Positions 3,234-24,511 of a stretch of DNA of 64,000 nucleotides are shown here, in pieces; the first letter of the stretch is position 1; every line of letters starts with the position of its first letter. The notes beneath the pieces were generated by a model, which was not told the DNA's origin, searched no databases, and was given only the letters and a program-made list of their open reading frames with translations. A program made the translations under genes and the position numbers. Origin of the DNA: Desulfosudis oleivorans (GTDB taxonomy: Bacteria; Desulfobacterota; Desulfobacteria; Desulfobacterales; SURF-7). The stretch is from contig DYJD01000003.1 in NCBI GenBank assembly GCA_020723325.1, positions 231,822-295,821 of the forward strand, given 5' to 3'.

Positions 3234-3420
3234 TGTTCAATCTGCGAACGACCTGGATTATTAATTTTATTGATTACGGATTTTGCAAGTGGGAAAAATT
3301 AGTAACCGGGCGCATGAATGGGAAACATTTGAAATATGATGCGCATAATAAGCAATCACGCTATGCAATATTTTGAAATCTGTCTCACCAAGAACTACAC
3401 TTTTGATTAAAGGGGGCGAC

Positions 3421-6138: not shown

Positions 6139-6258
6139 GATTGTTTGTTTAAAGCCTATGCGCTATCTTCTCCATTAAAATTCTATTATAATATATAAAT
6201 AATTGCTGCTATAACCAATGCCAACTCTCCAGGACGATTGTTAAAGGAAAATCCCAGC

Positions 6259-7227: not shown

Positions 7228-7314
7228 AGCGAAATAATGATATCTTTTAGCACCAAGATGAATAAAATTATTGTGCAACCAAGTGTGGATCAAATTGATT
7301 TTGGAGGAATAGGA

Positions 7315-9591
7315 ATGAATAACCGGCTTCAATTTTTTGCAATCATCGGTTTCATGCTGTTGATGGCGGCATGTTCATCTAGTGAGCAAAAAAAAATGGC
7401 TCATTTTGAAAAAGGCAAATCGTATTTCAATAAAGAAGAATATAAAAGTGCGAAACTGGAATTCATGAACGCCATCCAAATTGACCCCACATTTGTGGAT
7501 GCCCACTCCTATCTTGGAGAAACCAATTTGAAATTAAGCGACCCCCAAGGGGCGTTTAATGCATACAGCATGGTAATAAAACATGCGCCGGATAACATCG
7601 ATGCCCATATCAAGATCGCGACATTTCTTGTTCTCGGTCGCAAGAAGGATGAGGCCAAGGAGAAAATAGAATTCATTTTGCAAAAGGATCCGAACAATAT
7701 AAAAGCGCTGTTATTAAAAGCAGGTTTATTGAGCCATGATGGGGAGATGGATGCAGCTCAAGCAATTTTTGAAAAGGTTTTAGCGATTGATGGAAAACAC
7801 CTTAGTGCGGTTCTTGGCTTATCGCGTTTACTAGTGGATAGAAAAAAATTTGTTGAGGCCGAAAAAATTATAACAAGGGCAATTGAGCAAGAACCGAAAG
7901 AAGTCAAGTTGCAGATGGCTCTTTTCAGCCTGTATCTTGAGAAAAATGAATTGGCTTCAGCTGAAAAAATTATTGTGCGAACAGTGGGGGAAAACCCGGA
8001 TAATGTGGAACTTAACATTGTACTTGGTAATTTCTATGCACGATTAAAAAATATTCAAAAAGCAGAGGATGCTTTCAAACGCGCCATAACCAAAAACAAG
8101 GAAGGGGCAAAAGCCCATATGGCCGCCGCTGCTTTTTATAATATGATAGATCGAAAAAACGACGCCCAAGAGATGTATCGGCAAGCTTTGGCAATAGAAC
8201 CTGACAATGTAAGAATACTAGAGATTGTGGCGCGCTATTATTTGGATATTCACAACGTCACTGAGGCTGAGTCCCTAACTCAGAAAATGCTGGAGAAAAG
8301 ACCCAAATATATACCAGCTCTAATGCTCCAGGGTGAGATCGCCATCAATCGTAATGATTTCAACAAGGCGCTTGAGATTTTCGATCCCATCGTAAAAGAA
8401 GAACCGGACTCATATCTCGGGCAGTATTATCTTGGAGTGACCTATTTTGCAAAAGGTGATCTGAAATCAGCCATAGGAGCTCTTGAAAAAGCGATTAAAT
8501 TAAGCCCACTTTTTATAAAAGCAAGAATCGTTTTGGCAGATACATATTTGGGAATGCGGGATTTTGAATCTGCCCGGCGGGAAGTTCAAACTGTTTTAAC
8601 AAGTAATCCAATTAATTATCATGCAAATTTTATTTCCGGGCGGGTGTATTTCCAGCAAGGTGAAATGGACAAAGCAAAGGCAGCTTTTGAGACACTTATA
8701 AAGATCGATCCGAACAATCCAGCTGGCTATTACCGTTTGGGTGTGCTTTATCGGTTTCAAAAACAAAATGAAAAAGCCATGGAGAATTTTGAGAAGGCAC
8801 TTGCCCTTAATCCAAGCTTGATGGATGTATTCAGCCAAGTGGTCCTAGTACATGCCGCAAAAAAAGAATACGACAAGGCATTAAGCAAATGTGATCAACA
8901 ATTTGAAGTATTCAAGGATGTTCCGCTCTTGCAAGCCGTTGTGCTGAATCTCAAGGGCGAGTTGTATATGGCGAAACAAGATCGAACAAATGCAGAGAAA
9001 ACTTTTCAAGATGCGCTGGTGAAAAATCCGGATTATTTACCTCCCTATATGGCGCTGGCTGCAATTTATATTCAGGAAAAGGACGAAGACAAGGCCATTT
9101 CCCAATTCAAAGCAGCGCTTGAGAAGAAGCCGAACCAAGCCGACATCCACATGCTGCTGGGAACTGTTTACGATAAGAAGAAAAAATTCGAGGAATCGGA
9201 AAAGCATTATCGTGAAGCTCTCCGGATTAAACCTGATTTTGCACCAGCAGCAAATAATTTGGCCTATCTTTTGGCCTCACAAGGCAAAGACCTGGATGTC
9301 GCCTTGGGTTTTGCCCAAAAGGCCAAAGAGAAATTGCCAAATGAGCCGGGGGTGATGGACACCTTGGGATGGGTTTATCTGAAAAAAGGACTCTTTGACA
9401 GCGCCGTCACCGAACTTGCCGCCAGCATTGAAAAAATGCCCAAAAATGCAATCGTTCGCTATCATTTGGGACTTGCTTATCATGCCAAAGGCGATATGGT
9501 CCGGGCTAAAGACGAATTGGAGGAAGCGCTGGAATTAGACCCGAATTTTGAAAGCGCGGACGATGCCAGGCGCTTGTTGGCAGGGATGTAA
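7315..9591 (+). CDS. TPR-repeat lipoprotein (PrsT-like)
   Basis: The precursor has 758 residues with a lipoprotein signal (LMAAC, Cys about 20) and then about 20 tetratricopeptide repeats to the C-terminus (recurring YYRLGVLY, ALEKAI-, -DPNN patterns). It has no other domain. The length and all-TPR build resemble the PrsT lipoproteins found with exopolysaccharide/exosortase loci, although no exosortase is visible here. The ATG at 7315 follows a very good GGAGGAATAGG ribosome site; the frame stays open upstream but starts inside the signal otherwise. Lacking an Asp after the lipid Cys (CSSS), it would probably go to the outer membrane. It may help assemble the adjacent secretion/pilus machine or export polysaccharide. 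Confidence 0.8.
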   Translation: MNNRLQFFAIIGFMLLMAACSSSEQKKMAHFEKGKSYFNKEEYKSAKLEFMNAIQIDPTFVDAHSYLGETNLKLSDPQGAFNAYSMVIKHAPDNIDAHIKIATFLVLGRKKDEAKEKIEFILQKDPNNIKALLLKAGLLSHDGEMDAAQAIFEKVLAIDGKHLSAVLGLSRLLVDRKKFVEAEKIITRAIEQEPKEVKLQMALFSLYLEKNELASAEKIIVRTVGENPDNVELNIVLGNFYARLKNIQKAEDAFKRAITKNKEGAKAHMAAAAFYNMIDRKNDAQEMYRQALAIEPDNVRILEIVARYYLDIHNVTEAESLTQKMLEKRPKYIPALMLQGEIAINRNDFNKALEIFDPIVKEEPDSYLGQYYLGVTYFAKGDLKSAIGALEKAIKLSPLFIKARIVLADTYLGMRDFESARREVQTVLTSNPINYHANFISGRVYFQQGEMDKAKAAFETLIKIDPNNPAGYYRLGVLYRFQKQNEKAMENFEKALALNPSLMDVFSQVVLVHAAKKEYDKALSKCDQQFEVFKDVPLLQAVVLNLKGELYMAKQDRTNAEKTFQDALVKNPDYLPPYMALAAIYIQEKDEDKAISQFKAALEKKPNQADIHMLLGTVYDKKKKFEESEKHYREALRIKPDFAPAANNLAYLLASQGKDLDVALGFAQKAKEKLPNEPGVMDTLGWVYLKKGLFDSAVTELAASIEKMPKNAIVRYHLGLAYHAKGDMVRAKDELEEALELDPNFESADDARRLLAGM

Positions 9592-9638: not shown

Positions 9639-10787
9639 ATGAGGTTTTTTTCGTTTAAAATTATTGCGCTTTGCATTCTGCTCCCGCCTGTTTTCTACAT
9701 CGTTACCCTCCTTGCTGCCGAGGAAAGAATAAAACAAATTTATACCGATGAAATCGAAAAAAGCTATACAGGAGACACGCGGGAATTGTTTAGCGGCAAT
9801 GTTCAAATTCGAGAAGTCATTGCCCGCAACGTTGATAATTTTCTTCACATGCGTCGTTTGATATCGTGGGGGGTGAAGGTGATCGTCACTGTGACTACAC
9901 GGGGCGGCACGCTGTTGTACCCGCTGGTTTTTGAAACATCTTCGAATCAAATGTCGCTTCCTGACCCTTTAACCGTGGCGGCGGACAATTATGCGATCAT
10001 GAGTGAGGGCTTGACAGTCAACGTTGATGTGGAGATCGACCATAATACGTTGCTGTCAAATTTAATTTTAGGTGGTTATATATGCATGTTTCTTTTCATT
10101 ACATCGGTTTATTATCGCACCGGCATACGAAAGTCCAAGCGGCTTGAAGAGGAGAAGAACAGGGAAATCGAACGTCTTGTCGATTTGAAAAAAACCTATA
10201 TAGCGCAACTGGATGAGCTTGCGCGCAATCGCGAAGATTTGCAGGTGAAATACGAAGGGCTCAGGCATGAATTGGAAAATGAAAAAATTCGCGCAATGAA
10301 AAATGAGGATGAATTGATAAATGAAATCGTCAATTCAGAAGCCCAGATTGAAAAGAACTTATTGCTTCAGAAAGAGCAAAACGAAGAGATCGAAACCCTC
10401 AAGGAGATCATCAAGGAATTAGAAAAAGGCGTCCAGCGCGACGGCAAGCAAATCGTTAAAAGCACTGAAACAGTCGGAAAACGATTCAAGGCGCTGTATA
10501 AAAATATAATCATGCATAAGCGGGCCATAGAAGGTTATCTCGATTTGTCGGACGACATGAAAATCAAGAGTGAAGAAATCATTCATCAGTTAAATGATGA
10601 TGCTGCCAAGGTTGCAATAAAGCGAAAAGTATTTCATAAGAAGAGCCGGGAGACGGTTTTGGAAGTTATTTACGGTTATCGTGGAAGGTTGTATTTCAGA
10701 AGGACTAAAGATAATAAAATTGAGATTTTATCTGTAGGAACCAAGAACACGCAAACAAGGGATTTGGAATTTTTAGATAACCTTTAG
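9639..10787 (+). CDS. Unknown membrane protein with coiled coil
   Basis: I do not recognise this 382-residue protein. It has an N-terminal membrane segment (about 7-26), a roughly 100-residue periplasmic part rich in beta strands, and a second membrane segment (about 135-155). A long charged coiled coil follows (about 160-290, strongly Glu/Lys), then a basic C-terminal domain ending around LYFRRTKDNKIEILSVG. The topology resembles sensors or scaffold proteins with a cytoplasmic coiled coil but no kinase, GGDEF or HAMP motif is visible. The ATG follows weak translation signals. It precedes the gspF-like gene with a gap of about 180 nt, so it may be an accessory part of that system. Confidence 0.6.
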   Translation: MRFFSFKIIALCILLPPVFYIVTLLAAEERIKQIYTDEIEKSYTGDTRELFSGNVQIREVIARNVDNFLHMRRLISWGVKVIVTVTTRGGTLLYPLVFETSSNQMSLPDPLTVAADNYAIMSEGLTVNVDVEIDHNTLLSNLILGGYICMFLFITSVYYRTGIRKSKRLEEEKNREIERLVDLKKTYIAQLDELARNREDLQVKYEGLRHELENEKIRAMKNEDELINEIVNSEAQIEKNLLLQKEQNEEIETLKEIIKELEKGVQRDGKQIVKSTETVGKRFKALYKNIIMHKRAIEGYLDLSDDMKIKSEEIIHQLNDDAAKVAIKRKVFHKKSRETVLEVIYGYRGRLYFRRTKDNKIEILSVGTKNTQTRDLEFLDNL

Positions 10788-10965: not shown

Positions 10966-12177
10966 ATGCCGACCTTTCGATTTAAAATAGCTGTTCCCGG
11001 TGGCAAGATCAAAGAGAAGACCGCTATTGCCGATTCAAAGGCTTCTTTAAAACAAAAACTGGAAAGTGACGGTAATTTTGTACTGAATATCAGCCGGACA
11101 GGCGGCAGCCAATTTTTCAGCCTGCATTTGCAAAGAGGCAGACGCATTACCACAAGAGACTTTTTTTCATTCAATCAGGAATTCGCTGTTTTACTGAAGG
11201 CAGGATTATCGGTGGTATCCGCTTTAAATGCGATTATTGAAAACAATGAAGATGGCGAACTGCGCGATCTATTACAGGAAGTTCGGCAAGACATTACTGC
11301 CGGCGAGTCTTTATCCGGTTCATTTGAAAAATTCTCACATTTATTTTCAAAGCTCTATGTGATGACCTTAAAGGCCGGGGAAAAGAGCGGTGACATACCT
11401 ACAGCGCTTTTGCGCTATGTTGAATACATGAAAAAAACGGCGGAATTGAGGCGCAAGGTCATTTCTGCGTCAATTTATCCGGTCATATTGATGGTTGTTT
11501 CTATTTCAGTGGTTTTTTTTCTGATGATCTATGTCGTTCCCGCCATTTCCGGTGCCTTTTTAGAGTCTGGGAATCGCCTGCCGGAAATTACCCGTCTGCT
11601 GATTGATATCAGCACCTTGGTGCGGAATTATTTTTTTTATTTGCTGGCAGCTACAATAGGTCTGGGAATAATTGGATTTTACATCGGTCGAACAGATGCC
11701 GGCCGGCTTTTTTTTGATCAAATGAAAATAAACATGCTTTATTTCGGAGAGCTGTACCGAAATTACAGCACTTCGAAATTCAGCCGCACCCTTTCGACAT
11801 TGCTAGGTGCCGGGATTCCATTACTGGAGGCGGTTCAAATCGCGGCTGATACGATTCATAATCAGTTTTTAAAATTTAAATTAGCTCAAGTTGTTAAGAA
11901 TTTAGCAGAAGGTGCCGGGTTCTCTGAATCCTTGCGTCGATTTGATACACTCCCTCCATTGGCCGTACGCATGATTGATGCCGGCGAAACCGGTGGAGCG
12001 CTGACACCTGTTCTGATCGATATTGCAGATTTTTATGACAATGATGTGGATGCGAAATTATCTGTGTTGACCTCTGCCATTGAACCCACGCTTATGGTGG
12101 TTATGGGGCTTGTCATTGGATCGATTGTATTGGCACTCTATTTACCCATATTTCAACTCGCCGGAAATGTAGGGTGA
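10966..12177 (+). CDS. GspF/PilC/MshG-type inner-membrane platform protein
   Basis: The protein has 403 residues and two T2SSF domains. The first (about 65-190) carries FSFNQEFAVLLKAGLSV, the second (about 265-390) carries FSRTLSTLLGAGIPLLEA and the MIDAGETGG motif. Three hydrophobic segments lie near 168, 220 and 375. GspF-like proteins form the inner-membrane platform that couples the ATPase to pseudopilus growth. An N-terminal cytoplasmic segment (1-60) has the usual beta-rich start. It is the first core gene of the secretion locus and is followed by the ATPase gene after 67 nt. Whether the locus is T2SS or MSHA-like cannot be settled by this protein alone. Confidence 0.9.
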   Translation: MPTFRFKIAVPGGKIKEKTAIADSKASLKQKLESDGNFVLNISRTGGSQFFSLHLQRGRRITTRDFFSFNQEFAVLLKAGLSVVSALNAIIENNEDGELRDLLQEVRQDITAGESLSGSFEKFSHLFSKLYVMTLKAGEKSGDIPTALLRYVEYMKKTAELRRKVISASIYPVILMVVSISVVFFLMIYVVPAISGAFLESGNRLPEITRLLIDISTLVRNYFFYLLAATIGLGIIGFYIGRTDAGRLFFDQMKINMLYFGELYRNYSTSKFSRTLSTLLGAGIPLLEAVQIAADTIHNQFLKFKLAQVVKNLAEGAGFSESLRRFDTLPPLAVRMIDAGETGGALTPVLIDIADFYDNDVDAKLSVLTSAIEPTLMVVMGLVIGSIVLALYLPIFQLAGNVG

Positions 12178-12244: not shown

Positions 12245-13981
12245 ATGACGGTCGTTAATGTCTTTAAAAAAATGAAATTCGGCGACTGGGCGATTAAACT
12301 CGGTTTTATGACCGCCGAACAACTTGAATTCGTCATGTCTAAAAAGACAATAACAAAGCAGATGCTGGGGCATCTTTGTGTTGAAGAAGGTTTTATTGAT
12401 CATGAGCAATTGGCGCAGATCATGGCAGCCCAATATTCGTTCAAGTATATCGAATTGAAGGGAATCGATGATCCGGAGCTACTGAACATGATTCCCTTGC
12501 GATTTATGACTCGTTACCTTTTTGTGCCCTATGAAAAAAAAGATAATGAACTTGTCATCGCGGCTGCTGAACCGACCCATTGTTTTAAGGTGATCAACGA
12601 ACTTGAAATGCTAACGGATATGAAGATATCAGTGGTCGTTGCAAGCGAGAAACGAGTCAGCGAACTGCTGAAGAAAATTGAAGCCTCGCAAAGTGTTTTG
12701 GATACGGTTTCGGATGATATGCGGCTGTCCATCATCCGGGAATCGGAAAGCGGTGAAAAAATTCTGAGCGCTGAAAAAGTGTCTGCAGAGGAAAGCCCCA
12801 TTGTCCGCCTCGTGGATTCCACTATTTTAGATGCCATCAACAAGGGCGCAAGTGACATCCATATCGAAACTTCCGGAGGCGGAGTCATCATTCGATATCG
12901 CATTGACGGCATGCTTCATCAGGCCACCGACCCCCTCGATATTCAGCATCTTAGTCACATCATATCACGTATTAAAGTCATGTCTGAATTGGATATTTCT
13001 GAAAAACGGGTTCCCCAGGACGGCCGGTTCAAGTTAAAAGTGCGTGACCGCAATATCGATTTTCGAGTATCGATTCTGCCGACAATTTTTGGCGAGGATG
13101 CTGTTATTCGCATTTTAGACCGGGAAACCTTGTCCTCTGCTGATACAAATGAGTTTAGATTGGACAGTATCGGACTACCGGCCCGTGAGCTGAATCGTAT
13201 TCGTCGATTGATTCGCGCCCCATATGGCATGTTTCTCATGACCGGACCAACCGGCAGCGGTAAGACAACCACTTTGTACCGCGCTCTTTCCGAAGTGAAC
13301 AGCAAGGACGTGAAGATTATTACCATAGAAGATCCGGTGGAATATCAGTTGAAAGGCATCACGCAGATTCCGGTGAATGAAAAAACCGGTTTGACTTTTG
13401 CGCGTGGTCTGCGCTCCATTTTAAGGCATGATCCGGATAAAATGCTGGTGGGCGAGATCCGCGATGCTGAAACTGCCCAAATTGCACTGCAATCAGCTCT
13501 TACGGGCCATCTGGTTTTTACTACGGTCCATGCGAACAATGCTTTTGAAGTGATCGGTAGATTTGTTCATATGGGCATAGAACCCTACCAGCTTATGTCT
13601 GCCTTGAATTGTATCGTGGCTCAAAGGTTGCTCCGCACCCTTTGCCATTGCAAAGTGAAGCAGAAACTGCCCAAAGAGGAAATGATGGACTCCGGACTAG
13701 ATCCCAAGCTGTTCGGTGACAAAGTCTTTTTTGAAGCAAAAGGATGCAGTAGTTGTAAGGGAACGGGATATAGAGGTAGAAAGGCAATTATTGAACTGAT
13801 TGAATTGGATGATGATCTTCGCGCACTTTTCGTTGACCGGGCAGGCCCGTCTGTATTGAAAAAAAAGGCGGCTGAATCCGGGACGGTCTTCCTGAGGCAT
13901 GCTGCTTTGAAGGAAGTATTAAGCGGCAATACGAGTTTGAAGGAGGCAAACAGGGTCACATTCATTGAACCGAATGCTTAG
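12245..13981 (+). CDS. GspE/MshE-type assembly ATPase
   Basis: The 578-residue secretion ATPase has an N-terminal MshEN-like region (about 12-150) with two tandem LG...G-I/M...QL segments. The RecA-like core has Walker A GPTGSGKTT (about 333-341), the aspartate-box region TIEDPVEY, Walker B MLVGEIRD, and the HAN motif of the His box. A tetra-Cys zinc site (CHC ... CSSC) lies near 460-505. It would power pseudopilin extension. The c-di-GMP-binding 24-residue motif normally begins R-L-G; here residue 40 is Met (MLGHLCVEEGF), so ligand binding may be altered. Neighbours gspF and pilM-like genes support membership of one machine. Confidence 0.92.
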   Translation: MTVVNVFKKMKFGDWAIKLGFMTAEQLEFVMSKKTITKQMLGHLCVEEGFIDHEQLAQIMAAQYSFKYIELKGIDDPELLNMIPLRFMTRYLFVPYEKKDNELVIAAAEPTHCFKVINELEMLTDMKISVVVASEKRVSELLKKIEASQSVLDTVSDDMRLSIIRESESGEKILSAEKVSAEESPIVRLVDSTILDAINKGASDIHIETSGGGVIIRYRIDGMLHQATDPLDIQHLSHIISRIKVMSELDISEKRVPQDGRFKLKVRDRNIDFRVSILPTIFGEDAVIRILDRETLSSADTNEFRLDSIGLPARELNRIRRLIRAPYGMFLMTGPTGSGKTTTLYRALSEVNSKDVKIITIEDPVEYQLKGITQIPVNEKTGLTFARGLRSILRHDPDKMLVGEIRDAETAQIALQSALTGHLVFTTVHANNAFEVIGRFVHMGIEPYQLMSALNCIVAQRLLRTLCHCKVKQKLPKEEMMDSGLDPKLFGDKVFFEAKGCSSCKGTGYRGRKAIIELIELDDDLRALFVDRAGPSVLKKKAAESGTVFLRHAALKEVLSGNTSLKEANRVTFIEPNA

Positions 13982-14032: not shown

Positions 14033-14965
14033 ATGCGTTTTAGTCTCCATAAGAAATTGTGCGGAATTGAAATCAGCGCCAATTCCATCAGCGCTGCCAA
14101 GATAATGAAGGATAAGCTCGGGTTAAGACTTATAGCAGGTACCACTGTGCCGTTGCCGGTGGAAACAGTTAAGCTGTCATATCAAAAAAAAAATATAATT
14201 GACAACGTTCTGTTCATTGAAACACTTCGATCAGCCTTGGCAAAAGCGGAAATCGGACCTGGAAGGGTGGGGCTCTCGGTTCCGAATGAAATCGTAAAAA
14301 TATCCATCCAAAAATTTGAAGAGTTGCCTTCATCAAGAAGGGCGATTGAAAAAATGATTGCCTGGCATACGGAGAAAACACTGCATTTCCCCAGTGACAG
14401 CACGCAGATAGCCTACCATCACTTGGAAAGCGGACAAGGGGACAATGGCCTGATGCTGGTTACCGTGGCGGTTAAGTCAATCATTCAGGAATATGAGTTG
14501 ATGCTAAAGGAATTAAAACTGGACCCGGTTATCATTCAACCTGCCGGGATAAATCAGTTCAATTTCTATCAGCGCGCCCTTCCGCAAAACGGTGTTGTGG
14601 CGTTTTTGGGATTATATGAGAATTGCTTCACTTTTTTTGTTTTTGAAGACGGCTGTATGACTTTTTATCATACGGTCAAGCGCGGATTTTCAGATCTTCA
14701 TTTTTTTCAAGATGTGGATATGACCATGCAGCATTATTTGAACGTTAATCCGGACAGGGAAATCGAAAACATGTATGTCGGCAGTCAGGTGGCATTCCAT
14801 CGTGAATTAAAAGACGTGTTTCGTAATTTAAGCGATATGGATATTGAAATAATCGATGAAGGCCGTTTAATTAGAACCGACATGAATCTTGCAAAGGAAA
14901 AGGAGCGCGAGAGATTGTCAGCAATTGTTTCCGCCATCGGTGCTGCCCAGAGTTTATTGGGATAA
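14033..14965 (+). CDS. PilM/GspL-like actin-fold assembly protein
   Basis: This 310-residue cytoplasmic protein has the PilM-like opening (GIEISANSISAAKI), the EEL-SSRRAIEKMIAWHTEK region and an actin-like ATPase fold. PilM anchors the inner-membrane PilN/PilO pair of type IV pili; GspL plays the same part in T2SS. It starts 52 nt after the ATPase stop and is 11 nt from the next gene, forming a clear M-N-O-P order. Sequence is diverged from true PilM, so the name is by fold-like motifs and position. Confidence 0.75.
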   Translation: MRFSLHKKLCGIEISANSISAAKIMKDKLGLRLIAGTTVPLPVETVKLSYQKKNIIDNVLFIETLRSALAKAEIGPGRVGLSVPNEIVKISIQKFEELPSSRRAIEKMIAWHTEKTLHFPSDSTQIAYHHLESGQGDNGLMLVTVAVKSIIQEYELMLKELKLDPVIIQPAGINQFNFYQRALPQNGVVAFLGLYENCFTFFVFEDGCMTFYHTVKRGFSDLHFFQDVDMTMQHYLNVNPDREIENMYVGSQVAFHRELKDVFRNLSDMDIEIIDEGRLIRTDMNLAKEKERERLSAIVSAIGAAQSLLG

Positions 14966-14976
14966 AGGAATGTGAA

Positions 14977-15612
14977 ATGAAAACCACCATCCATACCAAT
15001 TTGGCGACGATTGAATATGTTGATCGCAGGCTGGCGTTTTTTTTAATGCTTTCCGCAAGTGCATTCATTTTGAGTATATCGCTCATTTTAATCCATCAGT
15101 TTTTTAATGATGCTGATAGGATCAGGGTATATCAGGGGAAAATCCTGCAGCGGAAACAACAAACCAATGCCAAGGAAAGAGCCGATGGTGAAAAGCATAA
15201 AACTTTCACAAAAGAACAACAAAAGGATCTATTGGAGCGCATTGTGCGCATCAATCGATTGATTGCCATGGATATTTTTCCTTGGAATCGGATATTGGAA
15301 GATTTGGAGAGGAGCTTACCGGAAGGATTGTATATCGAGTCCTTTGTCCCAGTAGAAGATTTCAGTTCGATTACACTGAAAGGTCGTGCCGACTCTGAAA
15401 GCAAGGTGGCTTTTTTCTATAAGAGATTGGAAGAGAACAAGATATTTGAAAAAAATGCCTTAACGACGTTTCAGGTGAAGCCCAGAAACGAGTCAAACAC
15501 CGGGAAAGCTTTAGAGATAGATATTCAATTTACAATGGAATGTCGGTTGGCGCTGCCCAATATTTTTGCAGATCCTCACTATCATGGTATCGGGCAAATT
15601 ATGCTTCGATAA
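14977..15612 (+). CDS. PilN-like bitopic protein
   Basis: The 211-residue protein has a short cytoplasmic N-terminus, one membrane segment (about 22-46), a coiled-coil stretch (about 50-85) and a PilN-like ferredoxin fold containing WNRILEDLERSLPEGLYIES. This is the usual PilN signature region (decides how a short periplasmic domain packs against PilO). It follows the PilM-like gene by 11 nt. In type IV pili the N-terminal tail of PilN binds PilM. Strength of assignment comes from the signature segment plus position. Confidence 0.75.
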   Translation: MKTTIHTNLATIEYVDRRLAFFLMLSASAFILSISLILIHQFFNDADRIRVYQGKILQRKQQTNAKERADGEKHKTFTKEQQKDLLERIVRINRLIAMDIFPWNRILEDLERSLPEGLYIESFVPVEDFSSITLKGRADSESKVAFFYKRLEENKIFEKNALTTFQVKPRNESNTGKALEIDIQFTMECRLALPNIFADPHYHGIGQIMLR

Positions 15613-15648: not shown

Positions 15649-16182
15649 ATGGAAAGGTACATTACGATATTCTCGGTTTATAGGATATTCTGGAGCGTTT
15701 GTGGGATTATTTTCCTCATCAATATAGTTGCATATTGGGGTCCTATCCGGCAGCAGCAAGAGCGGATTGAAGAATTGCGGGAACAATACTCCAAGCTTCG
15801 CGGGCAACAGATGCATCAGGGGGAAAAAAAAGAATCCATGGAGATTTATTTAAAAGCCGAACAATCATTACAGGCTTTTGAAACGGCCCTGCCGACCATG
15901 GATTCGGTTTCGGAAAAGGCCCGGGAATTATCAGAAATCATTGCAGCAAAGGATTCTTATCCGGGTGTGATGTTGTTCAAACCCAAATGGATCAAAGAAC
16001 TCGGGCTATGGCAATATTCAACACTCCTGACGATAACAAATCGATATGAGAATATAAAACAAATACTGGCAGGAATTCAGAATTCTCCCAGTCTATTTTG
16101 CATCGAGCAGCTATCGATCCAAAAAGGGACCGATGAGGATCAGATCGAACTCAAATTCGTTGCAGCAACTTATTGCCGGTAG
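15649..16182 (+). CDS. PilO-like bitopic protein
   Basis: The 177-residue protein has one N-terminal membrane segment (about 10-30), a coiled coil (about 35-70, with RIEELREQYSKLRGQ) and a small periplasmic domain. This is the build of PilO/GspM proteins, which pair with PilN in the inner-membrane alignment complex. Direct similarity is weak; the call is mainly topology, size and its place between the PilN-like and PilP/GspC-like genes. Confidence 0.65.
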   Translation: MERYITIFSVYRIFWSVCGIIFLINIVAYWGPIRQQQERIEELREQYSKLRGQQMHQGEKKESMEIYLKAEQSLQAFETALPTMDSVSEKARELSEIIAAKDSYPGVMLFKPKWIKELGLWQYSTLLTITNRYENIKQILAGIQNSPSLFCIEQLSIQKGTDEDQIELKFVAATYCR

Positions 16183-16206: not shown

Positions 16207-16782
16207 ATGAGCCGCAATGGAAAAATATTGATTGTTTTATTGGGTGTACTGGTTATCACGGTTATTTATCGGGTTTTAAACCCATTTCAGCAGCAAACCG
16301 TTGCCAAATTAAAATATGCCCGTCATGTGGATGGAAAAGCAACTCCTAGTTTTACCATACACACTGGTGAAAAAAAGAAATTATCTGATCAAGAAGTCTT
16401 GATCGACCTATTCATCAATCCTCCGCGTCATTCGGATAAAACCGTCAAGAACATATTTTATTTGTTCAAAGCCCAGGGGGGCCAAGCGAAAGAGTATATT
16501 ACAAGGCCTGATGTCGCAGAAATGGCTCAAAGCAGCATTGTTCAAAAACCGGACCCATATGCCCAGATCAATGAAGACATCCGCCGCTTTACGATATTCG
16601 GTATATATGAAAAAAATAAAGAGAAAATAGTGTTTTTAGAAAAAGAAAAAGACGTCCTCATGGTGCGGGAAGGGGATCGTATTGAGGGGAAATATCGAGT
16701 GGAACGTATAACCGACCAGCAGGTTGTCATTAAAGAGGAAAATTCAAATGCCTCTGTTACAATTGATATCCAAGGCATTTAA
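16207..16782 (+). CDS. PilP/GspC-like periplasmic connector
   Basis: The 191-residue protein has an N-terminal membrane anchor (about 6-24), a linker, and a small beta domain at about 125-190 with the pattern GIYEKNKEKIVFLE, VREGD and RVERI. This matches the homology-region domain of GspC and the PilP core, which contact the N0 domain of the secretin. Position directly before the secretin gene supports that job. It lacks a lipobox, unlike canonical PilP, so GspC or MshK-like is as good a name. Confidence 0.6.
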   Translation: MSRNGKILIVLLGVLVITVIYRVLNPFQQQTVAKLKYARHVDGKATPSFTIHTGEKKKLSDQEVLIDLFINPPRHSDKTVKNIFYLFKAQGGQAKEYITRPDVAEMAQSSIVQKPDPYAQINEDIRRFTIFGIYEKNKEKIVFLEKEKDVLMVREGDRIEGKYRVERITDQQVVIKEENSNASVTIDIQGI

Positions 16783-16840: not shown

Positions 16841-19237
16841 ATGAAGCGGATCATTCCTCAATGCTTATATCCACCGATCATGGCATTGATCATTGCGACT
16901 ATCATCGGATGCAGCGGCATCCATATCGGGAATGAACCTCAGCACCCGATTGCGGGGGATTGGGATAAAAGTGTTCAATATTTTCAAGAAATCATCGACC
17001 ATCAGCCGGACAACAAGGTTGCCATGTTGGGACTTTCCAGGGCCAAAATGGAGGCTTCCCTGGTTCACATGAATAGGGGAGAAAAGTTGATTCAGCAAAA
17101 AATGTTCAACGAAGCCATTACCGAATATCAATTGAGTATCGCCTTGGACCCAACAAATTCCAAGTCTGTTCAGATGATTGATAAAACAAAGAAAATGAAG
17201 GAATCCACCCATCACTATCAAAAGGGGATGGATTTCGTAAAAGCGCAAAAATATTTCAAGGCTCTTGAGGCTCTACAGGCATCACTGGCATTGGATCCCC
17301 AAAATGAAGAGGCGCGTGGGGCCCTGGCGGATTTAAACGCAAAACTTGAACCGATGAAGGGTGGGCGTTTAGGCATTGAATTGAAAGATCCGGTTTCTTT
17401 TCGATTCAAAAAGACCTCCATCATGAATGTATTTGAAGTGCTTTCCAGGCTATCGGGTGTGAATTTCGTCTTTGATAAAGATTTGGCCGATACAAAAGTC
17501 ACCCTTTTCATGACCGATGTATCATTTGAGCGTTTTCTGGATGTTCTGTTGAAAACCAATAATTTGGCCATGAAAATGGTCAGTGATAAAACTATCCTGA
17601 TTTATCCGGATACCCAGGCCAAGGCAAAGGAATATGATGAACTGAAAATTCGGACTTTTTATCTGTCAAATCTTGATCCCAAAAAGGCGGTAGGACTTTT
17701 ATCAAAAATTTTAAGCAGCAAAGATATTATTGCGAACGAAAAAGCCAATGCCATTGTTGTTCGCGGACGGGAGGAAGTGCTTGAGATAGCATCTAGAATG
17801 CTTGAGGCAAATGATTGCCCGCCTTCGGAAGTGCTGTTGAACCTGGAGATATTGGAAGTCAGCCGCAGTAAAGAAAAGCAATTGGGGCTTGAAATCAACC
17901 CCGCTTCTGTAACTTTTGGAATGGGAAAAGAAGCTACGGCGATCAACAATGACTCAAAACTAGCCGGATATGCATCCATCTATGCTATCGGTCATTCAAC
18001 CAATAAAGAGTTGATGTTGTCTTTACCCGCAGCAACCATGCATTTGCTGAAGCAGGATGGTGATACGCAAGTGCTTGCCAATCCTCAACTGCGTGTAAGA
18101 AATACCGAAAAGGCCTCCATTCATATCGGTGAGCGGGTTCCTTTGCGGACCAATCGGCGGCTGGACGCCACAGGCAATATTACTTATGATTATCAATATC
18201 AGGATGTGGGCGTCAAGGTAGAAGCAGAGCCTGTAATAAACATACATGGCGAAATTTCATTGAAACTGAGTCTGGAGATCAGTGCGCTGGGAGCCAATAT
18301 CGGTACGGCCGATGATCCGCAATACTCCATTCGAACGCGAACCGCCAAGAGTGTCTTGTCCATCCGGGATGGGGAGCCGGTGATTATCGGCGGATTGATC
18401 AGTGATGAGGAACGCGAGACGATCCGAAAGATTCCGCTTTTTGGAGAGGTTCCAATTGTAGGGCGGCTGTTTCGAAACGAGGGGCACAATAATGTCAGTA
18501 CCGATGTCATTATGTCGATCACACCCATTATAATGCAAAATCAGGAAATTCCAGGAGAGGCAATAACCCAGATTTGGTCTGGAAACGAGGCGCGCATTTC
18601 ACTTCAGGAACCTTATGAGAGTGTTCAGAAAAGGCGCCACGAAGCAGCTTCGGCCTTAAGAGAAGAAGATGATCAAAGTCGCTCGGAAGTAATGGAAAGC
18701 GAACCGGTTGTTGCTGAAACGTTGAATGAGAAAGACACAGATCAAGAAACAATCGATCCATCCAAATCAGTAACAAATGGAGCCAACCAAGATAAAATTG
18801 AGATCGTGGAAGGCGAAGAGGATTCAATGACGCCAGAAAAGATCGGCATGAGTTTGAATGTCCAGGAAGAAAAAGATCTTCAAAAATCCGCCAAACCATC
18901 AAATTCAATTGAGGTTGCCACAGCGGCACGCAGAGCAATCCCGGTGACGGAGCAAAATGACTATATATGGCCTGGAACTGTTCCGTTCAGCATCCATGTT
19001 AATTCCTTTCCGACAAAGAAACATGCCTTGATACGCATCAAAGAGCTAACCCAATTAAAATATGAATGCTTCATGGTTCATGTGCATGTGGAAGGCAAGG
19101 GAGAATATTACCGTGTTTTTGTCGGCAGGTTTGACGATTTTTCATCAGCCCGGCAGACCTGTCAAGAATATAAAAGTAGGAAAGAATTCACTAAAGACAT
19201 TCATGCGGTTAATCGCAATTGGGCTTTTAAAGGTTGA
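16841..19237 (+). CDS. TPR-secretin-SPOR lipoprotein (GspD/PilQ/MshL-like)
   Basis: The precursor has 798 residues with a lipobox (IIGC, Cys 24). TPR-like repeats follow (about 35-165), then an N0/STN-type domain (about 170-250), an N1-type domain (about 255-330) and the secretin core (about 335-570, with the VPLRTNRR and PVIIGGLI regions). A charged Glu/Asp-rich linker (about 580-700) leads to a C-terminal SPOR-like domain (about 705-798) with YYRVFVGRFDD. Secretins form the outer-membrane exit pore. The added lipid anchor could replace a pilotin, and SPOR domains bind denuded peptidoglycan. It overlaps the first pseudopilin gene by one base (TGATG), so the two are translationally coupled. 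Confidence 0.88.
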   Translation: MKRIIPQCLYPPIMALIIATIIGCSGIHIGNEPQHPIAGDWDKSVQYFQEIIDHQPDNKVAMLGLSRAKMEASLVHMNRGEKLIQQKMFNEAITEYQLSIALDPTNSKSVQMIDKTKKMKESTHHYQKGMDFVKAQKYFKALEALQASLALDPQNEEARGALADLNAKLEPMKGGRLGIELKDPVSFRFKKTSIMNVFEVLSRLSGVNFVFDKDLADTKVTLFMTDVSFERFLDVLLKTNNLAMKMVSDKTILIYPDTQAKAKEYDELKIRTFYLSNLDPKKAVGLLSKILSSKDIIANEKANAIVVRGREEVLEIASRMLEANDCPPSEVLLNLEILEVSRSKEKQLGLEINPASVTFGMGKEATAINNDSKLAGYASIYAIGHSTNKELMLSLPAATMHLLKQDGDTQVLANPQLRVRNTEKASIHIGERVPLRTNRRLDATGNITYDYQYQDVGVKVEAEPVINIHGEISLKLSLEISALGANIGTADDPQYSIRTRTAKSVLSIRDGEPVIIGGLISDEERETIRKIPLFGEVPIVGRLFRNEGHNNVSTDVIMSITPIIMQNQEIPGEAITQIWSGNEARISLQEPYESVQKRRHEAASALREEDDQSRSEVMESEPVVAETLNEKDTDQETIDPSKSVTNGANQDKIEIVEGEEDSMTPEKIGMSLNVQEEKDLQKSAKPSNSIEVATAARRAIPVTEQNDYIWPGTVPFSIHVNSFPTKKHALIRIKELTQLKYECFMVHVHVEGKGEYYRVFVGRFDDFSSARQTCQEYKSRKEFTKDIHAVNRNWAFKG

Positions 19238-19710
19238 TGGTGCGGAAAGCTTCATACTGCAATAAAGGGGTTACTCTGATTGAATTGATCGTCACCATGG
19301 CAATTCTTTCAATTCTTGCAATGGGTATTTTACCGCTTTCCAATATGGCCTATAAAAGAACAAAAGAATTGGAACTCCGACAGAATTTAAGAACGATTCG
19401 GAAAGCCATTGACCGATACAAGGAGATGGTGGATGAAAAAAAAATTTTAGTGGATGCCATATCCAGTGGATACCCTAAAAATTTAATACTGCTTGTAGAG
19501 GGTGCCGAGGCCCAGCGAGGAGCAGAAAAAGTTAAAATAAAATTTTTACGACGTATTCCAAAAGATCCCATGTCTGAAGATGGAGAATGGGGTCTACGCT
19601 CCCATGAAGATGAACCGGGAAGCGATGTCTGGGGAGGCCAGGATGTTTTTGATGTATATTCAAAGAGCGATCAACAAGCCTTGGATGGGAGTTATTACAA
19701 GGATTGGTGA
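19237..19710 (+). CDS. GspG-type major pseudopilin
   Basis: The product has about 157 residues and a class III prepilin signal: a basic leader, the cleavage site KG|VTLIEL with Glu at +5, then a hydrophobic helix. The globular part has the GspG pattern IPKDPMSED-W-L, a DVYS motif and LDGS-Y-W at the end, where calcium binds in GspG. The ATG at 19237 overlaps the secretin stop; a TTG one codon earlier is also possible. It is the first of three pseudopilin-like genes and the best candidate for the major subunit. Confidence 0.85.
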   Translation: MVRKASYCNKGVTLIELIVTMAILSILAMGILPLSNMAYKRTKELELRQNLRTIRKAIDRYKEMVDEKKILVDAISSGYPKNLILLVEGAEAQRGAEKVKIKFLRRIPKDPMSEDGEWGLRSHEDEPGSDVWGGQDVFDVYSKSDQQALDGSYYKDW

Positions 19711-19725: not shown

Positions 19726-20136
19726 TTGCATCAACATGAGCGCTTAAAAAGCTGTCGCACTACCATGGATCAAAAAGGGTATACATTAATTGAGATGATG
19801 ATCGTAATATCGATCATCAGTATTCTGGCAACTTTCGCTTTGCCGAATATGCAACGCGCCATTATCAGGGCACGGGAGACCTCCCTTCAAAATACTCTGT
19901 TTGTTTTTAGAGATGTAATCGATCAATATTATGCCGATCATGGCCGCTATCCCGACTCTTTACTGGATCTGGTTGATAATAAATATATTCGGGCAATTCC
20001 GAAAGACCCTTTCACAGGCAGTGTGGACACTTGGATTATCATGACACCAGAAGCCGGAGAAGGCGGGAATGTTTATGATATCCATAGTGGCAGCAATCGC
20101 GTGGGTTTGAATGGTGTTCCTTACAATGAGTGGTAA
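19726..20136 (+). CDS. GspG-like pseudopilin
   Basis: The protein has a prepilin site KG|YTLIEMM (Glu +5), a hydrophobic N-terminal helix and a short globular domain with GRYPDSLLDL, IPKDPFTG, a VYDIHSGS motif and LNGVPYNEW, which is GspG-like. A TTG start at 19726 has GGAGAG 5 nt upstream and gives a long leader of about 17 residues. The ATG at 19765 gives a short leader (MDQKG) but has no ribosome site. It resembles the preceding gene in layout, suggesting duplication. Function is as a minor or second pseudopilin. Confidence 0.8.
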   Translation: MHQHERLKSCRTTMDQKGYTLIEMMIVISIISILATFALPNMQRAIIRARETSLQNTLFVFRDVIDQYYADHGRYPDSLLDLVDNKYIRAIPKDPFTGSVDTWIIMTPEAGEGGNVYDIHSGSNRVGLNGVPYNEW

Positions 20137-20208: not shown

Positions 20209-20691
20209 GTGAAGGGTTTCACTTATATAAGTGCATTAATTATGATTGCCATAGCCAGCATCGCCTTGACGGAGGCGGTACGCTTGTGGCAAACAGTAGC
20301 TAAGCGAGAGCGCGAGGAAGAATTGATATTCCGCGGAGACCAGATTAGACGCGCTATAACTTCGTATGCCACGAGTACTGACCAGGGCGCGTTGCAATAT
20401 CCACGGGGTTTTTCGGATTTGTTGAAAGATCCCCGTTTCCCGGGTGTTAAACGCCATCTTAGAAAACTGTATCGCGATCCGATGACCGATGATGGTAAAT
20501 GGGGGCTAATCTTGGCAGAAGGAGGCGGCTTTAAAGGAGTATTCAGCAAAAGTGAGCATATACCGTTAAAAACTAGTAATTTCCCTAAAGAATATGTATC
20601 ATTTGAAAAGAGGAATAAATATTCGGATTGGAAATTCCAGCATTCGCCTGCCATATCACAATTGAATGTAAAGCCGGCGGTTAACAAGTAG
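20209..20691 (+). CDS. Atypical pseudopilin lacking Glu+5
   Basis: The 160-residue protein starts at GTG with a leader of only two residues (MKG|FTYISAL), then a hydrophobic helix and KREREEELIFRGDQIRRAI. That last stretch is typical of a divergent pseudopilin group in bacterial secretion loci. The expected Glu at +5 is absent (Ile/Ser region), which in GspK-like subunits also happens. YPRGFSDLLKDPR and DPMTDDGKWGLI show the GspG-like C-terminal part. It could sit at the pseudopilus tip or be a non-standard minor subunit. The pseudopilin class is supported; the tip role is inference. Confidence 0.7.
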   Translation: MKGFTYISALIMIAIASIALTEAVRLWQTVAKREREEELIFRGDQIRRAITSYATSTDQGALQYPRGFSDLLKDPRFPGVKRHLRKLYRDPMTDDGKWGLILAEGGGFKGVFSKSEHIPLKTSNFPKEYVSFEKRNKYSDWKFQHSPAISQLNVKPAVNK

Positions 20692-20716
20692 TAATGTTAT
20701 AAACTGGATGGAATAT

Positions 20717-21076
20717 ATGGATTTTATAAAAAAAATTATCGTATTGGCAATGCTTTGGTTACCCATGGGAATGCCTAAGGCAGCTACATGTGATGAGATG
20801 CAAATCATCCTGGATGAATACGGCCAAGCCTATGAACAATTGAAACCTTCTGCCGGCAGTTCTGTCAATGCTGATTACAAGCTTTCCCAAACAGCCTTGG
20901 GTGGGTTCTATACAACCAAATCCCTTGCATTGATTTACCGTCAAAATATGAAAATCGTGGCCCAAAATGAAAACATGATTAAAAAAACGGAAAAAATGAT
21001 CGAACAGAACAATGAGATAATTCGGCTGCTGACGATTATCGCCAAGGAAAAGAACCAACACAAACTTGATGAATAA
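20717..21076 (+). CDS. Small exported coiled-coil protein, unknown
   Basis: I do not recognise this family. The product has about 119 residues with a signal peptide (to about residue 22, MPKAA), then a mature part with a short coiled coil (QNENMIKKTEKMIEQNNEII). An upstream in-frame ATG (20708) adds three residues but the GG-rich site favours 20717. It lies between the third pseudopilin and the ExeA-like gene, separated by 25 and 6 nt, so it is probably cotranscribed. It could be a periplasmic partner of the machine. Confidence 0.6.
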   Translation: MDFIKKIIVLAMLWLPMGMPKAATCDEMQIILDEYGQAYEQLKPSAGSSVNADYKLSQTALGGFYTTKSLALIYRQNMKIVAQNENMIKKTEKMIEQNNEIIRLLTIIAKEKNQHKLDE

Positions 21077-21082
21077 CCATTC

Positions 21083-22693
21083 ATGTATCTTGAGCACTTT
21101 CAGTTAAAGACAAAACCATTTCAGATCAGTGCTGATCCTAAATTTTTGTGGCTCGGTGAAAACCATAAGGAAGCCCTCGCCATTCTGAAATACGGCATTT
21201 TGGATAATCGGGGATTTCTATTGCTAACCGGCGACGTAGGCACTGGAAAGACCACCTTGATTAATGCCTTGTTAAATGGTTTGGGCAATGAGGTAATCGC
21301 CGCCTCTGTTCCTGATCCGGGCCTTTCAATTCTTGACTTCTTAAACTACATTGCCGGAGCTTTCGGGATTAAAAAACGTTTCACAAGTAAAGGAGATTTT
21401 TTACTCTATTTTAAATATTTTCTAGAACAGGCATATCAAAAAAATAAGAAAGTGCTTTTGATTGTTGATGAGTCCCAACGACTCAGCCATGAGTTACTGG
21501 AAGAAATTAGACTTCTTTCGAACATTGAGAAACAAAACCAAAAATTGATCAATATTTTTTTTATCGGTCAGAATGAATTCAATGATTTGTTATGGGAGCC
21601 TCGGAATCGTGCTTTGCGACAACGAATTACCATCAATTATAACGTCTATGCCTTGACTGAGAAAGAGGTCGGTGAATATATCCGACACAGGTTGAAAATT
21701 GCGGGTACGGAAAAAACGATTTTCACTGCTGAAGCAATTAAAGGGATCATGCAATTTTCCGAAGGTTTTCCCCGCATGATCAATATCATTTGTGATCATG
21801 CGTTGCTGACAGGGTTTGTAAAAGGGGTAACCATGATCGGACCCGGAGTGATCCGGGAGTGCATTGCGGATTTGCAAATACCGCGAAAACAAGAAACCCA
21901 ATCAGAAGAGAAGGAACTTTTGGAAACGCCAAAGGAAATTTTTGCAGATTTGAAAAATGTCGAACATTTACCCCCAAAGGAATTCCAAAATATTATCTCA
22001 AGGCAGGGAATGGCAATCGTAGTCACACTTTTGTTGATCATTGGTATTGTGTTGTTTTTTTTTATAAAAGGACCGAACAATTATCTTGAATCCCTGTCTC
22101 GATACTGGGAAACGCTTTTCAGCGTTTCCCAAAAAATAAAAGAGGATGCTTTTCAAGACCATGAACAGGAAATTGATCAAACAAACATTATCCATTCTTT
22201 GAATAAAGATATAATAGAATTTTTTCAACGCAGCCAGGAAGATACTGTTCCATTGCATTTGATCAGGAAAAACGACACTCAGGAGAAAACCCTTGTCATT
22301 TCGCAGGGGGATAGAAAATCGCCAGGCAGGGGGATTTTTCACGGAAGAGCTGTACTGAATTTTGCCCATAACTCGAACGAGATTACCATGGAAACGGCTG
22401 AGATGCTTAATGGCATTTCATTAGTACTGCTCGGTGACTCGGCCTTGCGATTAAAGGTGGTCGGTTACACGGACTCTTCCGGTGTTTACAGTTACAATAA
22501 AAACCTTTCCTTATTTCGCGCCAATATTGTTAAAAATTATTTAATTCAAAAAGGTGTGAACCCGGCCCAAGTCGCGGCTATTGGAATGGGATCTGAAGAT
22601 CCGCTGGAGGACAATACAACTCCCCAGGGGCGTAAATTAAACCGGCGAGTTGAAATTGAGTTCATAAAATCCCAGTTAACAGCTCAGCCATGA
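21083..22693 (+). CDS. ExeA/GspA-type AAA ATPase fused to OmpA domain
   Basis: The protein has 536 residues. The N-terminal ExeA-like AAA domain (about 1-265) has Walker A GDVGTGKTT (about 50-58), Walker B LLIVDE and the RQRI arginine region. A single membrane segment (about 309-330) follows, then a linker and an OmpA/MotB-type peptidoglycan-binding domain (about 415-532) with GYTDSSG, LSLFRA and NRRVEIEF. In Aeromonas ExeA works with ExeB to let the secretin pass peptidoglycan and uses a different peptidoglycan-binding domain; here an OmpA domain takes that place. Location at the end of the secretion cluster fits that job. Confidence 0.85.
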   Translation: MYLEHFQLKTKPFQISADPKFLWLGENHKEALAILKYGILDNRGFLLLTGDVGTGKTTLINALLNGLGNEVIAASVPDPGLSILDFLNYIAGAFGIKKRFTSKGDFLLYFKYFLEQAYQKNKKVLLIVDESQRLSHELLEEIRLLSNIEKQNQKLINIFFIGQNEFNDLLWEPRNRALRQRITINYNVYALTEKEVGEYIRHRLKIAGTEKTIFTAEAIKGIMQFSEGFPRMINIICDHALLTGFVKGVTMIGPGVIRECIADLQIPRKQETQSEEKELLETPKEIFADLKNVEHLPPKEFQNIISRQGMAIVVTLLLIIGIVLFFFIKGPNNYLESLSRYWETLFSVSQKIKEDAFQDHEQEIDQTNIIHSLNKDIIEFFQRSQEDTVPLHLIRKNDTQEKTLVISQGDRKSPGRGIFHGRAVLNFAHNSNEITMETAEMLNGISLVLLGDSALRLKVVGYTDSSGVYSYNKNLSLFRANIVKNYLIQKGVNPAQVAAIGMGSEDPLEDNTTPQGRKLNRRVEIEFIKSQLTAQP

Positions 22694-22849: not shown

Positions 22850-23272
22850 ATGGCAACTTCAGCAGGACAGGACCGATCTGAAAATGTTACAGAACAATTG
22901 ATTCGACTCATCCGGAATATGCCGGAGAGCAGGCAGAAAAAACTATTGGATTTGCTGAATGAATGGAAAATGCTGGGGCAAAGGGAGCACGACCGTCGTT
23001 CTTGCCTGATTGCAGTTGACTATTCCACCCAGGAGCGTTTTTTCAGAGACTTCATTCAAGATATCAGTGCCGGCGGTGTCTTTATTGAGACACGTGAACT
23101 TTTTACTATTGGCCAGGAAATATATCTTACATTTTCGATACCGAATTCCGAAATTCCATTTCGGATTACGGGCAAGGTAACCCGAGCGACACAGGAAGGC
23201 ATTGCAGTAAAATTTAAAAATGTGAGTAAATATCAAGAAGAGATTTTACAGACCTTGCTTGATAAAATCTAA
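22850..23272 (+). CDS. PilZ-domain c-di-GMP receptor
   Basis: The 140-residue protein has a helical N-terminus (1-40) and a PilZ domain (about 45-138). The binding signature is present: an Arg-rich HDRRSC segment and DISAGGVFIET, matching the D/N-x-S-x-x-G pattern. PilZ proteins bind c-di-GMP and pass the signal to motility, secretion or polysaccharide machines. AAAGGA lies 8 nt before the ATG. Placement directly downstream of the secretion locus suggests a link, but the candidate promoter in the gap makes it a separate unit. Confidence 0.82.
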   Translation: MATSAGQDRSENVTEQLIRLIRNMPESRQKKLLDLLNEWKMLGQREHDRRSCLIAVDYSTQERFFRDFIQDISAGGVFIETRELFTIGQEIYLTFSIPNSEIPFRITGKVTRATQEGIAVKFKNVSKYQEEILQTLLDKI

Positions 23273-23712: not shown

Positions 23713-24057
23713 TTGGATACTACAGCCATTGCCAAAGAAATCATTAATTATCAAAAATCTCTTATTGAAAGCGCCTTCGAGGCTGCAAGTCTTTTTCAAG
23801 ATCAGACCGAACGGATTGCAAGCGCCTGGATCGAAAAAAATAACGATATTACTGCCGAAAGCCGTAAGTCGATCCAGCAGTGGACCAAGCTACTAAACAA
23901 AGGTAGTCAGAATTATAAGAAGATCATGGATGATCAGTTGAATAAATTTGAGAATCTTTTTGCAAAGCCTGCTTCATCTCGACCACTCAAGACAACCAAG
24001 ATGGAGGTAAAGCCAGATGAAGAGGAAGGTAAAAAACAAACTGCGGCCAAGAAATAG
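23713..24057 (+). CDS. Phasin-like granule protein 1
   Basis: The 114-residue, mostly helical protein has the phasin-like layout (YQKSLIESAFEAASLFQDQTERI, then SIQQWTKLL) and a Lys/Glu-rich tail. It starts at TTG behind a near-perfect AAGGAGG site. Phasins coat polyhydroxyalkanoate granules. It is followed by a second, similar short protein and then by a PhaC-like gene, which is the typical setting. The two phasin-like proteins share the pattern of a tyrosine/phenylalanine start followed by QDQ-ER and a Trp-containing helix, so they are probably paralogues. Sequence is short and diverged, so the family call leans on context. Confidence 0.7.
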   Translation: MDTTAIAKEIINYQKSLIESAFEAASLFQDQTERIASAWIEKNNDITAESRKSIQQWTKLLNKGSQNYKKIMDDQLNKFENLFAKPASSRPLKTTKMEVKPDEEEGKKQTAAKK

Positions 24058-24122
24058 TGTTTTCATTTTAACTTAGACCTGTCTTGCGAAGCATTAATCA
24101 TCAATTTAAGGAGAAAGGAGAG

Positions 24123-24386: not shown

Positions 24387-24440
24387 TCTTAAAAAACCTG
24401 CCGGAAACGACTGGATATTCACAAACTGCAAATCAACATT

Positions 24441-24498
24441 CTCACAGAGCGATGAAGGGTCTTTTCCCCGGAGCGCTCTGTGAGCGGTAATTTTTTTT
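24441..24498 (+). terminator. Hairpin with T-run (terminator or attenuator)
   Basis: CTCACAGAGCG (24441-24451) and its perfect complement at 24474-24484 form an 11-bp stem, followed after a few bases by eight T (about 24490-24497). It lies between the phasin genes and the PHA synthase gene on the same strand. It may end most transcripts there, giving more phasin than synthase. Confidence 0.7.
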
Positions 24499-24511
24499 GT
24501 AAGGTATTGAT

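Follow-up and report, generated by a model that had tools for sequence, protein, structure and literature searches.

A single chain encoded in the window, the 64,000-nucleotide stretch of Desulfosudis oleivorans DNA analysed here, joins an AAA ATPase of the GspA/ExeA class to a predicted membrane helix and an OmpA domain. This architecture, which a first-pass annotation had read from the sequence, is confirmed by profile matches and hydropathy. We hold with moderate confidence that the protein, termed ATP-OmpA (OmpA-tailed ATPase), is a wall-anchored ATPase with a role wider than secretins, which in the window's family would have been recruited as an accessory of a type II-like secretion machine. 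That it is such an accessory, and not a one-protein replacement of ExeAB, seems to us an evenly poised judgement. ATP-OmpA and its neighbours are arranged as follows.

3373..6000, + strand: repeat protein, secreted-looking, above the cut-off of NCBIfam Ca_tandemer
7237..9591, + strand: TPR lipoprotein, 428 bits with TIGR02917 PrsT (cut-off 312.2)
9639..10787, + strand: TapX (a label coined here), 382 aa, a membrane protein with an extended coiled coil as judged by eye
10966..12177, + strand: GspF/PilC-type platform protein, from domain matches
12245..13981, + strand: GspE/PilB-type assembly ATPase with an MshEN domain, from domain matches
14033..14965, + strand: PilM-like protein, from a domain match
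14977..15612, + strand: PilN-like protein, from a domain match
15649..16182, + strand: PilO/GspM-like protein, named by position alone, no Pfam match
16207..16782, + strand: PilP-type protein, 191 aa, whose family profile leads to PilP in the PDB (4av2, 2ivw)
16841..19237, + strand: secretin (residues 403-565) with STN, TPRs and a C-terminal SPOR domain (715-779), from domain matches
19234..19710, + strand: pil1, pseudopilin, prepilin N-terminal model above cut-off
19726..20136, + strand: pil2, pseudopilin, prepilin N-terminal model above cut-off
20209..20691, + strand: pil3, pilin-like, recurs in block loci, no NCBIfam match
20708..21076, + strand: small predicted periplasmic protein (location judged by eye), 122 aa, last gene of the block, recurs in block loci, no Pfam or NCBIfam match
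21083..22693, + strand: ATP-OmpA, 536 aa, with AAA ATPase, one transmembrane helix, linker, and OmpA domain with Asp464/Arg479
22850..23272, + strand: PilZ-like protein, 58.5 bits with TIGR02266, under the cut-off of 68.7; PilZ is our reading

The open reading frame at 21083-22693 is intact and codes for a single 536-aa chain. Pfam assigns residues 42-170 to AAA_22 (92.4 bits, cut-off 27) and residues 427-521 to OmpA (PF00691, 71.5 bits, cut-off 27.2), and the P-loop (GDVGTGKT, residues 50-57) and Walker B motif (DES, residues 129-131) can be read directly from the sequence. Past the ATPase domain the hydrophobicity maximum lies at about residues 310-328 (mean Kyte-Doolittle value 3.2). A full-length AlphaFold2 model, calculated from a 3-row alignment, has a helix at residues 298-329; this model is weak and was left out of the fold search because of its mean pLDDT of 54.8. 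Modelled on its own, the OmpA tail reaches a pLDDT of 77.4, and the best five structures in a PDB search with this model include Pal, OprF and the Acinetobacter OmpA domain with a bound peptidoglycan peptide (3td5). The fit to these domains is modest (TM-score about 0.6, rmsd 5-6), and the modelling suggested at the outset is in this measure consistent with an OmpA fold.

Loss of the Asp and Arg residues that bind diaminopimelate had been set beforehand as an observation that would speak against the first-pass annotation. We find the pair present as Asp464 and Arg479, and conserved in 89 and 91, respectively, of 92 OmpA-tailed sequences (the window's included). Their spacing of 15 residues is that of D271 and R286, which bind diaminopimelate in A. 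baumannii OmpA according to the text considered of PMC6572160. The tail thus resembles OmpA/Pal/MotB-type domains in its fold and in this residue pair, but differs from them in being joined to an inner-membrane ATPase. Wall binding by the tail is predicted from these features.

Comparison of ATP-OmpA with the GspA of the same genome reveals 42% identity over residues 1-265. GspA/ExeA, a type II assembly factor that acts with GspB/ExeB in Aeromonas and Vibrio, shares with ATP-OmpA the AAA_22 domain, one helix and a periplasmic wall-binding domain. It carries, however, PG_binding_1 where ATP-OmpA has OmpA, and no PG_binding_1 (PF01471) tail is found among the Pfam matches of ATP-OmpA, in line with the initial claim that the wall-binding part differs from that of ExeA. 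GspA/ExeA also has a gspB partner, whereas ATP-OmpA has no adjoining gspB above cut-off and is near a secretin in 3 of 64 loci. GspA tails with PF01471 and GspAB fusions have been described, and an OmpA tail is not named in the text considered (PMC9239104). A single-chain GspA-type protein for secretin assembly is known from Vibrio vulnificus, where EpsA and EpsB are fused (PMC6532946 and PMC9239104, in the parts considered). EpsAB carries the GspB periplasmic part, unlike ATP-OmpA, which has OmpA and no GspB-type part recognisable by Pfam. A literature search of partial coverage, which cannot prove absence, returned no description of an OmpA-tailed ExeA-type ATPase. With single-chain EpsAB already known, the OmpA-tailed branch appears, by sequence, to be a variant of the known GspA/ExeA kind of ATPase.

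The chain is not a chance fusion, as relatives with 48-54% identity over nearly its whole length occur in other genomes. A search with the single protein (E<=1e-20) returned matches in at least 254 of 291 genomes of the class, and most of the matches listed cover the ATPase part only. A 28-row profile at E<=1e-150 gave 123 matches in 106 of the 291 genomes. Counted from the table, 94 of them reach at least model position 524 (of 549) and 29 stop earlier, so that the 106 genomes include some whose match has no OmpA tail. At E<=1e-90, 60 of 395 genomes of the phylum match; among the matches listed, the OmpA part is covered in G000, G003 and G006, from the same order, and in G421, from elsewhere in the phylum. 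Named relatives come from Desulfobacteraceae and from Deltaproteobacteria MAGs. A scan of contigs returned two relatives and says little about spread because exact short patterns were used.

Among ATPases from fetched loci, 92 of 113 have an OmpA tail (three of the 92 being duplicates), a ratio that is no unbiased proportion, as the loci were the top of the match list and not a random sample. Two of the 21 ATPases without an OmpA tail (L125 and L137) are cut by a contig end. Nine of the ATPases lacking OmpA were scanned: two have TPR, one has TonB_C, the genome's GspA has PG_binding_1, and five, including the truncated L125, have no tail domain above Pfam cut-off. Terminal TonB_C (50.0 bits) occurs in the relative at L146:7691-9472, and terminal TPR repeats in those at L138:7221-9791 and L149:9003-10688. 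In the ATPase tree, which left out three duplicate sequences (L040, L041, and L042), 29 of 107 inner branches are well supported.

In the window, the TPR lipoprotein, TapX, an 11-gene block and ATP-OmpA follow one another on the same strand. The block consists of GspF, GspE, PilM, PilN, the PilO-like and PilP-like proteins, the secretin, three pilin-like proteins and the small protein. Gaps between genes from the TPR gene through ATP-OmpA range from -4 to 178 bp, with 6 bp just before ATP-OmpA. Promoter and terminator scans are near shuffled expectation (47 versus 40.5, sd 6.2, and 20 versus 17.9, sd 4.1, respectively) and do not define the operon borders. The block secretin scores 103.8 bits with MshL, for which the cut-off is 250.2, and its C-terminal SPOR domain (residues 715-779; window 18983-19177) scores 29.9 bits (cut-off 21). 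The text considered of PMC9239104 knows SPOR among type II secretins only from Legionella LspD, where it is N-terminal. A profile of the SPOR tail matches 12 of 20 secretins from the block loci L170-L189, and some of the other eight are cut or near a contig end. Five further block loci (L173, L175, L176, L179, and L184) encode relatives of the repeat protein at 3373-6000 ahead of GspF, and we consider this protein a candidate secreted substrate of the block machine. The PilZ-like protein likewise recurs after ATP-OmpA, in L028, L052, L068, L080, L083, L104, L110 and L124. TapX has no curated family above cut-off. Further 3' of the operon (23713-26074), small phasin-type-like proteins and a polyhydroxyalkanoate synthase were read without a search.

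ATP-OmpA is found directly 3' of the block in four of the five block-bearing genomes of the window's family (G000, G172, G080, and G142). This adjacency covers two genera (G000 in one, the other three in the second) plus locus L028, where the contig begins with pil3 and the small protein, the block's last two genes, and ATP-OmpA follows. Whole-chain identity of the block-adjacent ATPases is about 48-54%. In G172 and G142 the block sits between a gene that we take to be lgt and ATP-OmpA, and the genes 5' of the block are presumably larB, kdsB, guaA and efp. The genes 5' of the block are different in the window and in G172/G142, which indicates that block and ATPase move together as a unit. G019 is the family's exception: its block lies on a contig that ends 142 bases beyond the secretin, and its sole strong ATP-OmpA match is located after TapX on another contig. 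The other three of the eight sampled family genomes (G133, G146, and G149) have no strong match to the block secretin or to ATP-OmpA.

L027, a locus from a MAG, has BLAST matches to G172 and G142 on both flanks and falls with them in a six-row tree clade (SH-aLRT 95), but lacks the block: its ATP-OmpA begins 11 bp after lgt. The match is imperfect, since L027 also lacks a regulator-like gene of 704-709 aa that precedes lgt and the PilZ-like gene that follows ATP-OmpA. In the 2.7-Mb MAG, which is of unstated completeness, we find no close relative of the block secretin, the best secretin match having 27% identity. The ATPase can hence be retained without the block. If L027 has lost the block, its ATPase could be left over from it or work with a different secretin; with few inner branches well supported, the tree does not separate a gain of the block next to the ATPase from its loss.

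Across the OmpA-tailed loci inspected, a secretin is the exception. With a model of the secretin core and loci reaching at least 5 kb upstream, 3 of 64 loci contain one (L083, L103, and L104). Each of them belongs to the window's family, and the window itself stands outside this count. An earlier, broad secretin search had flagged 24 of 58 loci; apart from these three, what it flagged agrees in length and position with the TPR lipoprotein, and we infer that the extra matches came via the TPR part of secretin models. That count was dropped, and the search was redone with the secretin core alone and a plainer locus filter. TapX is found directly upstream of ATP-OmpA in 28 of the 64 loci (31 anywhere in the locus), the TPR lipoprotein in 25, and a further small protein, termed cluster 5, in 12 (directly upstream in 11). 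Either TapX or cluster 5 is present in 43 loci and neither in 21; genes that we read as polysaccharide-export genes are present in eight. L068 shows the window's order minus the block (SDR-TPR-TapX-ATP-OmpA-PilZ). ATP-OmpA and TapX co-occur in 67 of the 291 genomes (odds ratio 3.7), and TapX is no obligate partner, as 39 of the 106 ATP-OmpA genomes have no match to it. A GspA with PG_binding_1 and a GspB-like protein (T2SSB 21.6 bits, under cut-off) in G142 have a divergently oriented TPR-TapX pair as their neighbour (L232:8190-14456).

Relatives of the block secretin occur in 27 of the 291 genomes, of which 18 have ATP-OmpA, 19 have TapX, and 4 have neither; nine are without a strong ATP-OmpA match. 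In the 20 block loci L170-L189 the gene set of the window's block is found again. All 11 genes were recognised in L179 and L180; the others have one or more genes unrecognised or truncated by the limits of their contigs, and L173 and L188 appear rearranged. Nine loci extend at least 1.8 kb past the last block gene and finish the block with a pilin or small gene (L171, L174, L175, L179, L180, L181, L183, L184, and L186); none of them has an ATPase of this kind immediately after the block. Such an ATPase lies about 8 kb further on in L181 (G150), and another at 14.7 kb in G213. Outside the window's family, ATP-OmpA is thus within 20 kb of the block in two of 13 genomes having both (G150 and G213; random-placement probability 0.007), and TapX in three of 14 (G018, G086, and G213; 0.0003). 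The 20-kb limit was set after the data had been seen, the co-occurrence and distance figures ignore kinship and contig breaks, G213 counts for both proteins with TapX and ATP-OmpA in one cluster, and many sampled genomes are incomplete. In G018, TapX directly precedes the block GspE, and the genome has no strong ATP-OmpA match. The wider idea behind the first-pass annotation, a link to a secretin machine, is supported by the adjacency in four of five block genomes of the family and L028 and by these two genomes from other families.

The narrower idea was that ATP-OmpA alone does the job of ExeA and ExeB and opens or organises the wall for passage of the secretin multimer. Its place after the block in G000, G172, G080, G142 and L028, the 6-bp gap to the block's last gene, the wall-binding residues, an ATPase of ExeA's class and an operon without gspB above cut-off all speak in its favour. 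Yet a secretin accompanies the ATPase in 3 of 64 inspected loci, a third of the block-secretin genomes (9 of 27) lack a strong match to it, and L027 retains it without the block. The lack of any recognisable GspB-type part in the chain disfavours a one-protein ExeAB; the operon encodes a PilP-type protein, and a GspA-GspB pair is present elsewhere in the genome. We therefore regard one-protein secretin insertion as improbable, and the accessory role proposed above as the likelier of the two. MshM is an ExeA-type ATPase. The MshM of MSHA-type pili comes from a locus that, as in the window, has a secretin, GspE/F-type proteins and pilins, and mshM is mandatory in the published MSH model (PMC6668835, in the text considered). 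ATP-OmpA differs in that 9 of 27 genomes with the block secretin have no strong match to it.

The PilP-type protein bears on who contacts the secretin. No gspB above the cut-off of the T2SSB profile is found in the operon: the 191-aa PilP-type protein scores 16.4 bits with T2SSB (cut-off 28.4) and 18.2 bits with pilP_fam (curated cut-off 34.65). A profile of its family (18 relatives) identifies two distinct PDB sequences at E<=1 and no others, namely 4av2 (E 8.5e-4) and 2ivw (E 9.9e-4). T2SSB matches one of the 18 family members, below cut-off. Direct comparisons of the family with the genome's GspB and with a 161-aa protein from contig C110, each with a single sequence on one side, gave no support for a relationship (probabilities of 1.4% and 4.3%, respectively). 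The secretin contact is made by ExeB in Aeromonas (PMC4098917), and GspB, GspC and PilP have a common fold that touches the secretin N0 domain (PMC9239104), both according to the parts of the sources considered. ExeB's secretin-contact role therefore need not be missing in the window's operon, and the PilP-type protein is a natural candidate for it. The earlier statement that no ExeB is seen holds for the operon and fails for the genome, where contig C78 encodes the only T2SSB match above cut-off (30.4 bits), adjoining a GspA-type ATPase with PG_binding_1 (34.8 bits).

The same genome contains five secretin matches in total, and contig C110 carries another pilus-like locus, which includes an ATPase. 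There, the tail of the secretin (L065:7756-9918) is homologous to that of the ExeA-type ATPase (9991-11592), with 35% identity over 164 aa, as though one wall-binding module were common to both partners; in the secretin tail SPOR is below cut-off, and by our reading the tail is LysM-like. On contig C76 (L230:6271-11342), the genome's other TPR-TapX pair comes after two stator genes that exceed the cut-offs of NCBIfam PRK09109 (flagellar motor protein) and MotD, respectively. The product of the MotD gene, which overlaps the TPR gene, also ends in OmpA.

The best curated match of the ATPase, TIGR03015 from XrtA/PEP-CTERM systems, and a TPR neighbour above the cut-off of PrsT (TIGR02917) raise the alternative that ATP-OmpA serves as an accessory in surface assembly of the polysaccharide or XrtA/PEP-CTERM type, acting with the PrsT-like lipoprotein and TapX, and that its position after the block is incidental. 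Polysaccharide-export genes presumed in 8 of 64 loci, window 6238-7227, which we take to encode a UDP-sugar enzyme, and the restriction of block adjacency to two genera and L028 would fit. But the TIGR03015 score of 260.2 bits does not reach the cut-off of 324.5, eight loci are few, and in other families the proximity of both ATP-OmpA and TapX to the block (within 20 kb) is above random expectation. Exosortase matches in the genome are confined to contigs C53 and C85, with none on the contig of ATP-OmpA. C53 is an XrtA-type locus with its own ATPase, which is above the TIGR03015 cut-off (328.3 bits) and, unlike ATP-OmpA, has no OmpA tail. We consider the surface-assembly role unlikely, though somewhat less so than one-protein secretin insertion.

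We thus favour an AAA ATPase that is anchored to peptidoglycan and is of the GspA/MshM/XrtA-ATPase kind, from a branch with an OmpA tail that appears to be common in the class. An ATP-driven change or oligomerisation in the cytoplasm may be passed on to the wall-bound tails, and ATP-OmpA could in this way mark or clamp a wall site for an envelope-crossing complex. It is often accompanied by TapX and the PrsT-like TPR lipoprotein, not by a secretin, and may contact either of these two proteins. In the window's family, where it would form one unit with the 11-gene type II/type IV-pilus-like block that precedes it, ATP-OmpA probably anchors the machine or helps its placement in the wall, possibly including that of the secretin. 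The PilP-type protein would contact the secretin N0 domain, and the secretin's SPOR tail may also hold glycan.

TapX directly precedes ATP-OmpA in 28 of 64 loci, and the TPR-TapX pair is found beside a GspA-GspB-like pair (G142), a MotA/MotD-like stator (C76) and the secretin block. From this we tentatively suggest, as a possibility short of our main reading, that the TPR lipoprotein and TapX together with a wall-anchored inner-membrane engine are a portable module opening or marking peptidoglycan for different envelope machines. If so, ExeA-type ATPases would be general wall gates with an exchangeable tail (OmpA, PG_binding_1, or LysM/SPOR-like). Gene order ties TapX, an uncharacterised protein, to these ATPases. 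An intact ATPase branch with another wall-binding domain, present at one site whether or not a secretin block is there, offers natural comparisons that separate what needs wall binding from what needs the secretin.
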